Origin: Nocardioides sp. URHA0020
GTDB taxonomy: Bacteria > Actinomycetota > Actinomycetes > Propionibacteriales > Nocardioidaceae
NCBI RefSeq assembly: GCF_000620705.1
Contig: NZ_KK211167.1
Coordinates: 298,135 to 362,134, forward strand
Length of the DNA stretch: 64,000 nt
Direction of reading: 5' to 3'
In this document: in pieces, positions 25,280-58,677 of the stretch
How the letters are laid out: every line of letters starts with the position of its first letter
Position numbering within the stretch: the stretch's first letter is position 1
Program-made: the position numbers and the translations under genes
The notes under the pieces: generated by a model
What the model was told of the DNA's origin: nothing
Database searches by the model: none
Seen by the model: the letters and a program-made list of their open reading frames with translations, nothing else

Positions 25280-25289
25280 GGGTGGGCGG

Positions 25290-25522
25290 TGGGCAATCCA
25301 CCGTTCGGGTGGGGCGGCTGCCGGTGGCGGATCCACCAGATGTGCTGGTCGGATCGGTGGATTGCGCACCGCTCGGGCGGGGTGGGGGCGGTAGCGGTGG
25401 CGGATCCACCGAATGTGCCGGTCGGAACGGTGGATCACGCACCGCTCGGGCGGGGTGGGGGCGGTAGCGGTGGCGGATCCACCGAATGTGCCGGACTGGA
25501 CGGTGGATCACGCACCGCTCGA
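25290..25522. repeat. 73-bp tandem palindromic repeat array, left of the nuclease gene
   Basis: Three units repeat at exactly 73 bp, with GATCCACC at 25330, 25403 and 25476, after a shortened copy (AATCCACC at 25295). Each full unit holds a hairpin: in the second, GATCCACCG at 25403-25411 pairs with CGGTGGATC at 25428-25436 across 16 bases. Units end in a GGGCGGGGTGGGGGCGGTAG stretch. The third unit is cut short and runs into the convergent nuclease gene, supplying its stop codon. There are no spacers of CRISPR kind. Confidence 0.88.
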
Positions 25523-26467
25523 GCGATAGCGGTCGTGGCGCGGTCCGACTGCCGCGGACAGCTTCCCGAAGAGCGCCTCCCACTCCTGGCCGAAGGCCGG
25601 CGGCGGTCCGTCGTACCCGCCCCGGAGCAGTGCGCGGTAGACCTCTCCGACCATCGTGCGCGGACGGAGCAGCCGCTCCTTGGTGACCTGGACGTAGTGC
25701 GTGTCGGACGCACGCATGAGCGCGTAGCGGTCGATGTCCTTGCTGTAGACCCCGCGATCCTCCTGGTGCTGCGCGCCTTCGTACTCGACGACCGTGCGCC
25801 AGCTCCGGTATACGAGGTCGCCGATCACCTGCACGTCCTCGCGGACATTGATTGCGACGTTCGACTGAGGCCTCGGCAGGCCGGCGAACTCCAGGACCGC
25901 GCGGAGCTCGCTCTCCTTGAGCGAGCGTGACCGCGCATCGAGGTGGTCCAGCAGCCAGACCGCCTCGTCGGCCCCGTCGCGCCACAGGCAGGACAACGCG
26001 AAGGAGCGGATGGCGTCGACCGTGGTGTGACCTTCGTGCAGCAGCCAGTCGCCGACCTTGATCGCGTCGAGCACGCGAGCCTGCGCGCAGAAGGCGACGA
26101 ACGCGGCCTCGACGATCACCCCGACCCCGTCGGTCGGCGGCAGCCGCTTGGTGCGGTGGAGGAACACCTTGTCGAACGCCAGGTGCAGCTCTCCCTCGAT
26201 CACGAAGTGCAGCGGGAGTCGTGGTCCGAAGTCCAGACCGAGCTGCTGCAGGCGCGTGATGCCGGTCAGCCGGGCGCGCCCGGGCAGCGCCAGACGCGCG
26301 GCAGTCACCCAGTCCGCGTCGGTCATGCGGTGCTCCGCGCACCGGAAGACCCGCGGACAGAGCCGGACGAATCGCCGGGCGTCGAGCTGACGGTCGGTGA
26401 GGCCGAGGGCGCGGGCCTCCTGTCGGGTGAAGGGCCTGTCGGTCAGGGCCTCAGGTATCGGTCGCAT
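25508..26467 (-). CDS. DUF559/AbiEi-like protein, putative PD-(D/E)XK nuclease
   Basis: A 319-residue protein of unproven function. Residues 10-110 resemble the AbiEi-type winged-helix N-terminus (FTRQEARALGLTDRQLDARR, then LCPRVFR). Residues 180-265 look like a DUF559/Vsr-type nuclease fold: ESE at 185-187, IGDLVYR with Asp217, VEYEGAQHQ with Glu228, Glu230 and His234, then SKDIDRYALM with Asp244 and Asp246. The last residues and the TGA come from a 73-bp repeat unit. Repeat arrays flank it on both sides. Codon use looks less GC-biased than the neighbours. It could be a defence or orphan antitoxin-like gene, or cargo of a repeat-bounded element. Confidence 0.6.
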   Translation of the reverse strand: MRPIPEALTDRPFTRQEARALGLTDRQLDARRFVRLCPRVFRCAEHRMTDADWVTAARLALPGRARLTGITRLQQLGLDFGPRLPLHFVIEGELHLAFDKVFLHRTKRLPPTDGVGVIVEAAFVAFCAQARVLDAIKVGDWLLHEGHTTVDAIRSFALSCLWRDGADEAVWLLDHLDARSRSLKESELRAVLEFAGLPRPQSNVAINVREDVQVIGDLVYRSWRTVVEYEGAQHQEDRGVYSKDIDRYALMRASDTHYVQVTKERLLRPRTMVGEVYRALLRGGYDGPPPAFGQEWEALFGKLSAAVGPRHDRYRSSGA

Positions 26468-26560
26468 CCGCCCAGTTGACGGCGATCGCTGGGCATCCGC
26501 CGATGCGCTCGAGCGCGCTGTGGACAGCGGCGTCGCGGGCCCGGCCTGTGGACACTTGGC

Positions 26561-26770
26561 GGCGGTGCAGGATCCACCGAGTCGTACGCCGCACTCCGTG
26601 GATAGCCCACCGCTACCGCCGTCGCCCAGGGCCGGCGGTGGGGGATCCACCGAGTGGTACGCCGTACCCGGTGGATAGCCCACCGCCACCGCCGTCGCCC
26701 AGGTGGACCGCCCACCGCCCCACGCAGCCCCCGGTGGATAGCCCACCGCCACCGCCACCACCGCCGTCCC
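26561..26770. repeat. 73-bp palindromic repeat array, right of the nuclease gene
   Basis: GATCCACCGA at 26571 and 26644 and GTGGATAG at 26598 and 26671 give the same 73-bp period as the left array. A third, degenerate copy has GTGGATAG at 26734. Each pairs a GATCCACC arm with a GGTGGAT arm across about 15-19 bases and continues into CCCACCGCCACCGCC. The units are in the same orientation as the left array. With it, the 328-bp gap between the nuclease and racemase genes is mostly repeat; a short stretch at 26468-26560 would hold the nuclease promoter. Confidence 0.85.
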
Positions 26771-57114: not shown

Positions 57115-57447
57115 CCGGTGGTTGAGGTGTGAGGGCCGTACGGCGTACCGGTGGTTGAGGTGTGAGGGCCGCCGGGCCCGAGCCTCGAAACCCCTTCCCC
57201 GGTGGTTGAGGTGTGAGGGCCGCCAGGCCCGAGCCTCGAAACCTCCGCAGCGTGCGCAGGGCGTCGTTCGCGTCGGTCGCCGTTGCGTGTGGGTTGCGGG
57301 GGTCTCGACGTCGCTCAGGCGCCAGAGCGCCTTCGCTGCTCGACCACCGGCTACGCCGTACGTCGCACCCCGCTCGGCGTCGCGTGTGGGCTGCGGGGGT
57401 CTCGACGACGCTCAGGCGCCAGCGCGCCTTCGCTGCTCGACCACCGG
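57115..57447. repeat. Cluster of dispersed repeats (CCGGTGGTYGAG ... CTCGARACC)
   Basis: Three direct copies begin CCGGTGGTTGAG at 57115 (truncated), 57148 and 57199, and the full ones end CTCGAAACC. Two inverted copies lie at 57298-57350 and 57395-57447, running GGGGGTCTCGAC to CTCGACCACCGG. The inverted pair is a tandem duplication with a 97-bp period. The ends are conserved while the centre varies. The cluster fills the 300-bp gap, and the last copy contains the stop codon of the cyclopropane synthase gene. Confidence 0.85.
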
Positions 57448-58677
57448 CGTACGACGCTCGAGCAGGACCTGCTCGACGTCGAGGTAGCCGGAGGCGAAGC
57501 CCGCGCGGGAGTAGCAGAGGTAGAAGTGCCACATCCGCAGGAAGGTGTTGTCGAAGCCGAGCCCGAGGACCTCGTCGGCGCGCGCGAGGAAGGTCTCGTC
57601 CCAGCGGCGCAGGGTCTCCGCGTAGTCGTGGCCGAACGCGAGCCGGTCGGTCACGCGCAGCGACGTGTGCTCGGCGGTGACCTCGTCGATCGCCTCGGCG
57701 GAGGGCAGGAAGCCGCCCGGGAAGATGTACTTGTTGATCCAGGTGAAGCCGCCGCGGGTCGCGAGCATCCGATCGTGCGGCATCAGGATGGCCTGGATGC
57801 CGGCCCGGCCACCAGGCGCGAGCAGGCTGTCGATGGCGGAGAAGTACGTCGGCCAGAACTCGTGCCCGACGGCCTCGATCATCTCGACGCTGAGGACGAC
57901 GTCGTACTCGCCCGCCACGTCGCGGTAGTCGCACAGGTCGACCTGGACCCGGTGGCTGTGCCCCGCGGCCTCGATGCGCTCGCGCGCCAGGGTCTGCTGC
58001 TCGGTCGAGAGCGTCACGGAGCGGACGGTGGCGCCGCGGGCGGCCGCGCGGATCGAGAGCTCGCCCCAGCCGGTGCCGATCTCCAGGACGCGCGTGCCCT
58101 CGCCGACCCCGGTCACGTCGAGCAGCCGGTCGATCTTGCGGTGCTGCGCGGTGACCAGGTCGAGCGCGAGGTCGCGCTCGAAGAGCGCGGAGGAGTAGCT
58201 CAGGGACTCGTCGAGGAAGAGCCCGAAGAGGTCGTTGGACAGGTCGTAGTGGTGCGCGATGAGCTCGCGGGTCTGGTCCTTCGACGTCCGGTGCTGCCGC
58301 GGCATCCGGTGCTGCACCAAGCCGCGCAGCCGCTGCAGCGGTCGCGGGACCAGGTCGGCGATGTCGGCGGCCAGCACCGTCAGGAACGGCGTCAGGTCCT
58401 CGGCGTCCCAGGCCCCGGTGAGGTAGGCCTCGCCGAAGCCGATCAGGCCGTCGCGGCCCAGTCGGGCGAAGAGCTCGTCGGGCCGGTGCACGGTCATCGT
58501 GGGTCCGCCGGCACCGATCACGCGGCCCTCGAGGGTCACGCTGACGGGGAGCCGACGTACGGCGGCCACGAACAGCCGGCGGGCGACGGCGGCGGAGACG
58601 GCGGTGCGCGGACCGCGCGGCACGCCGTCGAGGCCGGGCCAGGATCCGGGGACGGGTCGGGTGGGTGCGAGCGTCAC
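57412..58677 (-). CDS. Cyclopropane-fatty-acyl-phospholipid synthase family (UfaA1-like)
   Basis: A 421-residue SAM-dependent lipid methyltransferase, adding a methylene or methyl group to membrane unsaturated acyl chains. HHYDLSNDLFGLFLD near residue 142 and SYSSALFE are family landmarks. SAM motif I is EIGTGWG at 199-205, and EMIEAVGHEFWPTYF follows. The GTG start overlaps the stop of the FAD/DUF1365 gene (GTGA). The last residues from VVEQ onward and the stop lie inside a dispersed repeat, so the natural C-terminus was probably replaced. M. tuberculosis ufaA1 is in the same sigK-linked position. Confidence 0.92.
   Translation of the reverse strand: MTLAPTRPVPGSWPGLDGVPRGPRTAVSAAVARRLFVAAVRRLPVSVTLEGRVIGAGGPTMTVHRPDELFARLGRDGLIGFGEAYLTGAWDAEDLTPFLTVLAADIADLVPRPLQRLRGLVQHRMPRQHRTSKDQTRELIAHHYDLSNDLFGLFLDESLSYSSALFERDLALDLVTAQHRKIDRLLDVTGVGEGTRVLEIGTGWGELSIRAAARGATVRSVTLSTEQQTLARERIEAAGHSHRVQVDLCDYRDVAGEYDVVLSVEMIEAVGHEFWPTYFSAIDSLLAPGGRAGIQAILMPHDRMLATRGGFTWINKYIFPGGFLPSAEAIDEVTAEHTSLRVTDRLAFGHDYAETLRRWDETFLARADEVLGLGFDNTFLRMWHFYLCYSRAGFASGYLDVEQVLLERRTPVVEQRRRAGA

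Follow-up and report, generated by a model that had tools for sequence, protein, structure and literature searches.

Palindromic repeats matched to the gene of a predicted AbiEi-like/Vsr-like fusion protein in Nocardioides

A gene bracketed by palindrome arrays

The window analysed here, a stretch of 64,000 nucleotides of Nocardioides sp. URHA0020 (contig NZ_KK211167.1), contains a gene, coding for the protein P0001, which is bracketed by two arrays of a palindromic repeat (Table 1). This gene, the family to which it belongs and the cognate repeats are the subject of this report. The left array is composed of three 52-bp palindromes and an outer half-site, and the right array of two palindromes and degenerate half-sites. 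Each palindrome consists of two inverted half-sites, which in this genome read GCGGTG-N4-ATCCACC. An earlier note on this DNA, made from the sequence alone, had described a 73-bp palindromic repeat; 73 bp is the period, observed within the left and right arrays alike, and the palindrome proper spans 52 bp. GATCCACC is present at 25330, 25403, 25476, 26571 and 26644, as listed there, and the stop codon of the gene does fall within the last left unit (25467-25518). The shortened copies noticed at the outer ends of the arrays exist as half-sites, at 25286, 26702 and 26733. In contrast, the pairing GATCCACC...GGTGGATC, assigned to every full unit, occurs exactly in only two of the five. No Rfam family corresponds to the repeat, the sole match, mir-629, lying below the cut-off (E 0.79).

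Structure prediction strongly supports the view that P0001 combines an AbiEi-like winged helix with a nuclease fold of the Vsr/I-Bth0305I type. The AlphaFold2 model, obtained with 49 family sequences, has a predicted local distance difference test score (pLDDT) of 91.8. Since Foldseek alone returned nothing below E 0.001 (the best match, an AbiEi protein, reached 5.8e-3), the fold assignments rest on a second aligner. Residues 1-177 align with the S. agalactiae AbiEi antitoxin 6y8q_A over 170 residues (VIA-align; Z 10.9, root mean square deviation (rmsd) 5.7). Residues from about 181 to 286 align with the catalytic domain of I-Bth0305I, 3r3p_A, over 97 of 97 residues (Z 11.5, rmsd 2.7), followed by the putative endonuclease 3hrl (Z 10.4) and Vsr, 1cw0_A (Z 9.6). 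Sequence comparisons are much less informative. For P0001, neither Pfam nor NCBIfam has a matching model at E<=1, and a sequence profile searched against solved structures found no related one (3 matches, best E 0.55). The Pfam matches of the 49 relatives at E<=0.1 are weak and spread among seven families, which include AbiEi_3_N (6/49), AbiEi_4 (4/49) and DUF559 (2/49); the NCBIfam scan of the relatives gave nothing relevant. The label of AbiEi plus DUF559-like protein given earlier is backed by the predicted fold and by these weak matches of relatives, although P0001 itself matches no model.

Residues E185, D217, E228, E230, H234, D244 and R247 are invariant in 49 sequences that are 44-70% identical to P0001. 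The spacing of acidic residue and histidine presumably resembles that of Vsr, which, together with the homing endonuclease I-Bth0305I, we take to belong to the EDxHD family. In the predicted fold, helices 15-20 and 25-28 precede strands 33-37 and 40-43 and form the winged helix with them. Helix 25-28 occupies the place of AbiEi H3, the DNA-recognition helix of such winged-helix domains (PMC7319586).

Table 1 Features of the gene and its two repeat arrays, in window coordinates
Feature	Position	Strand	Basis
Gene for AbiEi-like/Vsr-like protein P0001, 319 residues	25508..26467	-	Open reading frame and translation
AbiEi-like part, residues 1-177	25937..26467	-	VIA-align to 6y8q_A; Foldseek rank 1
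Codons 25-29, predicted DNA-recognition helix covarying with repeat core	26381..26395	-	Helix 25-28 before wing strands; covariation
Codons 181-286, Vsr/homing-endonuclease-like nuclease domain	25610..25927	-	Structure alignment; invariant residues
Left array, outer half-site	25286..25302	.	
Left array, palindrome unit 1	25321..25372	.	
Left array, palindrome unit 2	25394..25445	.	
Left array, palindrome unit 3, overlapping the stop codon of the gene	25467..25518	.	
Right array, palindrome unit 1, upstream of gene	26562..26613	.	
Right array, palindrome unit 2	26635..26686	.	
Right array, degenerate outer half-sites at 26702 and 26733	26702..26749	.	

The repeat family and its cognate gene

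In the URHA0020 genome, the half-site GCGGTGNNNNATCCACC has 56 exact matches, vs 1 for the reversed pattern. Among 20 stretches fetched around the matches listed, 17 contain at least one full palindrome and 14 contain two or more, with array periods that are specific to each locus and range from about 62 to 111 bp. The arrays sit mostly just behind stop codons. According to a simple gene caller, 6 of the 14 arrays lie between convergent and 7 between codirectional genes; 1 is unclear, and none is clearly located at divergent promoters. The family gene is single copy, as the protein search gave only two further weak relatives. The idea that each array marks a copy of the gene was discarded, since the genome holds one gene but, in the 20 stretches, no fewer than 14 additional arrays with at least two units each.

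Orthologues of P0001 (E below 1e-40) were found in 61 of 215 Nocardioides genomes, URHA0020 included; the remaining genomes with listed matches carry distant relatives, mostly 24-33% identical. The 63 orthologue loci (two each from genomes G014 and G155) were searched for units within 450 bp of the gene, a unit being defined by GCGGT[GC]/[CG]ACCGC ends with no more than 1 mismatch, together with an inner stem no shorter than 5. Units are present at all 63 loci (upstream in 53, downstream in 60, on both sides in 50), against about 0.2 expected per locus from the density elsewhere in the same loci (0.202 per kb). With a stem of at least 6, units are found at 56 of 63 loci (upstream 43, downstream 50, both sides 37; 0.069 per kb elsewhere), the automatic finder missing weak cases at the other 7. 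At stem 5, a unit is present in only one of 18 distant relatives, and at stem 6 in none.

Outside Nocardioides, the family occurs at 12 loci among the best 80 of 131 relatives, namely in Aeromicrobium (10), one further actinobacterium and Pseudactinotalea suaedae. Units were found at 11 of these loci, and repeats are visible by eye at the twelfth. At locus L199 the finder is blank at either setting, although repeats can be seen by eye. In contrast, among 33 weaker relatives, which come from Actinomadura, Microbacteriaceae, Mycobacterium and other groups, an isolated one-sided unit was found in 3 (L224, L241 and L244), and none has units on both sides of the gene.

Comparison of 76 family loci revealed that 30 lie between the same two genes and 9 at the site occupied in the window, between genes for an ABC transporter and a family III CoA-transferase; the others form at least six smaller site groups, plus singletons. 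This variety of chromosomal sites suggests that the gene cassette may be mobile. G014 carries two family genes (L104 and L154) at separate sites, with flanks of the GGGGGA and GCAACC types. Six family genes (L092, L096, L098, L119, L121 and L123) feature an in-frame stop or split matches and are possibly decaying copies; the genomes of several of them, such as G210 and G073, are still rich in repeats.

A single gene surrounded by inverted palindromes is the architecture of REPtrons (PMC2817692), and the repeats might accordingly be moved by a classical REP-associated tyrosine transposase (RAYT) of the HUH Y1 type encoded elsewhere in the genome. This explanation is scarcely credible. At E<=1e-5, the transposase model PF01797 is matched in 1 of the 215 genus genomes and is absent from the other 214, including that of URHA0020, while 5 of 14 control genomes were positive.

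The outer GCGGTG of the half-sites is nearly constant across species, and the inner core is variable, even among species that carry the gene at one same chromosomal site. Cores include ATCCACC, GCAACC, GCCACC, AGCCACAT, GGCTCGGTTT, CAGGTT/CACGTT, GAGGGGGA, GGACCGG, GCGTCC and more. Counts of half-sites in all 215 genomes, with flank types assigned by eye, revealed that, for the well-filled core types, the repeats of a genome have the same core as the palindromes beside its gene. CCACAT halves number at least 20 in 19 genomes, 18 of which bear the gene (Fisher p 2.7e-10). Among gene-bearing genomes, this level is reached by 18 of the 19 with CCACAT-type flanks and by none of the 42 others (p 1.4e-14). 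Similarly, 10 of the 13 genomes with at least 20 GCAACC halves bear the gene (p 2.5e-4), and the level is reached by 10 of 11 gene-bearing genomes with matching flanks vs 0 of 50 others (p 1.2e-10). GGCTCGG is prominent only in G177 (32 halves, control 6), the gene of which has GGCTCGG flanks. ATCCACC halves are most numerous in URHA0020 (56), followed by G107 (14), G163 (12), G165 (11), G160 (10) and G066 (6); the gene flanks of G163 and G160 are of TCCACC types. For CAGGTT/CACGTT, all 8 genomes predicted beforehand to be high hold 31 to 192 halves. In G022, CCACAT arrays coexist with arrays of the GACAGGTT type, as if they were older and newer repeat generations.

Helix-core covariation, unit length and turnover

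The tip of the putative recognition helix, residues 25-29, tracks the core, the two having varied together over dozens of species. Numbering half-site positions from GCGGTG (1-6), and considering 54 loci below 75% identity, base 15 A is accompanied by R26 in 30 of 39 loci, T by K26 in 5 of 5 and G by D26 in 4 of 6. Base 14 A is accompanied by Q29 in 10 of 12 loci, C by E29 or D29 in 20 of 31, and G by R29 in 6 of 9. Moreover, in 24 sequences from three related core classes, residue 26 is R in one class, G or S in another and D in the third, with no exception.

Co-change was assessed on a tree of 68 loci (134 branches) built without residues 18-37, and 262 protein columns were compared with 9 base positions. 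Base 15 changes on 12 of the 134 branches, and on 11 of these it changes jointly with residue 26 (p 2.1e-10), which ranks first of the 262 columns, the next column reaching 1.5e-3. For base 13, residues 26 and 25 rank first and second (1.6e-7 and 1.4e-6), as they do, weakly, for base 17 (1.5e-3 and 8.5e-3). None of residues 25, 26 and 29 is among the top five columns for positions 11, 12, 16, 18 and 19. In a tree-free ranking by mutual information, the pair of residue 26 and base 15 is first of 4186 with all 68 loci, first of 4158 with the 54 loci, and sixth at a 65% cut-off (34 loci). The pair of residue 29 and base 14 is ninth, seventh and outside the top 15, respectively. We relied on the tree-based test because clade-level pairs mix into the mutual-information ranking. 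The pattern is of the kind to be expected if the helix reads the core, and the pairing of protein and repeat, together with its specificity, is strongly supported.

These results also bear on two outcomes that the earlier note had named as contrary to its proposal. The repeat is indeed scattered over the genome, but it is not unlinked from the gene family, as evidenced by the palindromes at 63/63 family loci, the matching core types and the helix-core co-change. At the looser setting, an orthologue locus devoid of repeats was not found among the 63. The notion of a protein with a nuclease fold that recognises the surrounding repeat, comparable in concept to REP/RAYT pairs, is thus supported by computation.

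Unit lengths were measured from outer end to outer end, with no length prior between 36 and 110 bp, at those loci, 57 of the 63, for which a core consensus was available. Beside the gene, 179 units measure 49-53 bp, none 54-58 bp and 23 measure 59-62 bp; four are longer, a much longer class being possibly under-counted since the consensus cores derive from 42-61 bp units. The longer unit class is found at L133/L134, L141 and L142/L145/L150, which are three groups by site and core. The step of approximately 10 bp corresponds to one turn of B-DNA, which would place two protomers on one face of the duplex, with 16 or 26 bp between half-sites. It is therefore probable that the protein acts on duplex DNA as a pair of bound molecules. 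No such step would be needed for a single-stranded hairpin, and the spacing favours a dimer on duplex DNA over the folded hairpin that had been proposed as the recognised form.

At the shared chromosomal site, conservation of the family protein falls below that of the CoA-transferase and of the ABC ATPase in 8 of 8 comparisons, and below that of the permease in 7 of 8. In the first upstream unit, the closely related genomes G096 and G097 (about 99% identical) differ at 4 spacer positions, each of which makes G096 identical to the neighbouring unit; this single case looks like local conversion. A single unit seen only in G096 was dismissed as a chance palindrome within DNA common to both genomes. 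The copy number of a tandem GC-rich repeat round GGACGTCATGGCGGGCGG, at about position 95700 of the joined stretch (L276-L295 and L296-L315), also seems to differ between the two.

Several observations weigh against the mechanism proposed in the last section. The association of residue 29 with base 14 is weaker in the tree test (rank 3 of 262, p 8.2e-3) and has exceptions, since the CAGGTT group combines Q29 with C and the GGGGGA group combines E29 with G. D25 is found with T at base 12 in 5 of 7 cases, but the tree test gives it rank 35 and no support. With regard to core types, G072 has GGCTCGG flanks but only 7 GGCTCGG halves, as many as the control. G107 holds its 14 ATCCACC halves despite GCAACC flanks, and G165 (11) and G066 (6) have ATCCACC halves without an orthologue. 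The gene-bearing G205 (5) and G179 (4) are poor in the tested core. The prediction that CASGTT would be low in CCACAT genomes failed: of the 18 gene-bearing genomes rich in CCACAT, 8 have at least 20 matches, in part owing to CCACGTT variants, which also satisfy the pattern, and in part to true CAGGTT arrays, as in G022; G045, G055 and G147 are likewise high. Arrays also occur where the gene was not detected: G129 (215 GCAACC halves), G035 (43) and G109 (38) have no family gene by profile search, and G090 (42 CCACAT halves) has none in a search with P0001 alone. G035 is a single-contig genome, and some contigs of G129 begin inside arrays, so that its gene could lie in an assembly gap. Finally, no gain or loss of an array was seen in 400 kb between G096 and G097, and spread is therefore slow. 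Slow turnover and gene-less arrays together imply that repeats can persist without ongoing activity.

Arrays lacking a detected gene were inspected at L258-L263 (G035), L264-L271 (G129) and L272-L275 (G109). The idea that they bracket some other gene was rejected, as no such gene was seen in the 18 stretches of the three genomes. Genes near two of the G035 arrays (L258, 875-2206; L259, 5392-6651) resemble those for DUF222/HNH proteins of the 13E12 type.

Gene-less arrays, along with the location of most arrays just behind stop codons, might indicate ordinary 3' elements, such as terminators or REP-like RNA hairpins, which are spread by another agent and surround the gene by chance. However, units occur at 63 of 63 family loci but in no more than 1 of 18 distant relatives, the core type goes with the gene, residues and bases change together, and a length step of one helical turn is unexpected of RNA hairpins. 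We consider this explanation very improbable; unless an artefact of alignment or tree is involved, the co-change result already contradicts it.

The location of the right array, in the upstream region of the gene, fits a different explanation, in which the protein would be a regulator or chromosome organiser that binds without cutting, the palindromes serving as binding sites through which it controls its own gene and marks intergenic regions, and the nuclease domain being inactive or structural. AbiEi antitoxins autoregulate in this manner, by binding inverted repeats of their own promoter (PMC7319586), and the coevolution of helix and core needs binding alone. Nonetheless, E185, D217, E228, E230, H234 and D244, the putative nuclease residues, are invariant in the 49 sequences, none of the 14 URHA0020 arrays lies clearly between divergent promoters, and regulation alone leaves tandem amplification and core switching unexplained. 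A purely binding role is possible, but we find it doubtful.

The domain composition might also suggest a device for defence or for self/non-self discrimination, in which the nuclease would attack incoming DNA and the palindromes would serve as marks, decoys or titration sites. Nucleases with Vsr-like or homing-endonuclease folds do cleave DNA, and PADLOC AbiEi models match some family members (best 1.1e-7). P0001 itself matches no PADLOC model at E<=0.1, and neither an AbiEii toxin nor a defence gene was found among the four neighbouring genes scanned, which correspond to ABC_tran, BPD_transp_1, CoA_transf_3 and FMO-like. Moreover, the specificity follows the repeats of the host itself, which makes targets in foreign DNA hard to see. 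Such a role is improbable.

Another GC-rich unit of 97 bp (1.8 copies, 92% matches), which contains GTCTCGACGACGCTCAGG...GCTCGACCACC, is located at window positions 57277-57453. It looks like another dispersed repeat, the sequence of which is unrelated to the GCGGTG palindromes.

A candidate mechanism and its relation to known systems

On balance, we think it rather probable that the family proteins are site-specific DNA-binding nucleases, with the palindromes as recognition sites, which drive the maintenance of the repeats. On one duplex palindrome, two protomers would occupy the two inverted half-sites by means of their N-terminal winged helices, which would read the constant GCGGTG and the variable core, the latter via residues 25-29. 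Paired binding would bring a pair of Vsr/homing-endonuclease-like domains to the variable spacer of 16 or 26 bp, where a nick or cut might start recombination or copying. Copying would keep arrays homogeneous, multiply them in tandem and carry them to new intergenic sites, and a change in helix specificity would lead to the rewriting of the repeats of the genome. Dimer binding, cleavage, copying between loci and a selfish or domesticated role are thus what we infer from the patterns described. More specifically, the system may act as a homing-like drive, in which a dimeric AbiEi-Vsr nuclease cuts the spacers of whichever palindromes its helix reads, repair copies arrays using other units or loci as the source, and a helix change of one or two residues re-targets the protein, so that the repeat family is rewritten throughout the genome; we put this forward as a tentative version of the mechanism. 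If true, it would represent the maintenance of a palindrome family by a non-HUH protein with a readable amino-acid-to-base code.

Among bacteria, the known example of dispersed palindromes tied to a cognate gene is that of REP/RAYT pairs. To our knowledge, no earlier non-HUH system maintains a bacterial palindrome family with an amino-acid-to-base code. In the open-access literature searched, which leaves most subscription papers and all of bioRxiv outside, we found no report of an AbiEi-Vsr family together with repeats and no co-mention of AbiEi and DUF559. The data point to an unrecognised repeat-maintaining system in the Nocardioides group that is unrelated to REP/RAYT, and thus to what looks like an independent solution to repeat maintenance. 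About 60 sequenced genomes already provide matched pairs of protein and repeat, the covarying helix residues constitute a ready set of predicted specificity switches, and the family may offer new palindrome-binding nucleases.

The likeness to REP/RAYT systems (REPtrons; TnpA-REP) is extensive. In both, inverted palindromes lie on either side of a single gene, palindromes are also scattered over intergenic sites and arranged in arrays, gene and repeat co-evolve, and repeat abundance tracks gene presence, here with exceptions. The gene also evolves faster than its neighbours, as described for RAYTs (PMC2817692). In contrast, the protein features an AbiEi-like winged helix and a Vsr-type nuclease fold instead of an HUH Y1 transposase. 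REP sequences measure 20-40 bp and carry a GTAG or CGTC tag (PMC3733652), whereas the units described here measure 49-53 or 59-62 bp and have constant GCGGTG ends. Similarly, TnpA-REP processes single-stranded REP (PMC8266576), whereas the spacing of half-sites suggests duplex recognition by a dimer. Although it operates in the manner of a REP/RAYT pair, the system does not qualify as one, as it differs in both protein family and repeat class.

AbiEi antitoxins of the type IV AbiE systems, such as S. agalactiae AbiEi and Rv2827c, share the fold of residues 1-177, and their sites are inverted repeats in their own promoter (PMC7319586). Unlike these antitoxins, the family protein has a fused nuclease domain, and its sites are repeated over the genome; the adjacent AbiEii nucleotidyltransferase that characterizes AbiE toxin-antitoxin pairs is not among the four neighbouring window genes. 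Vsr and I-Bth0305I resemble the protein in the fold of residues from about 181 to 286 and in the conserved acidic and histidine residues of the putative active site. The family gene differs in that it is not located in an intron or intein and that no mismatch-repair partner is seen next door. In contrast to both enzymes, DNA specificity is apparently conferred by the fused winged helix.

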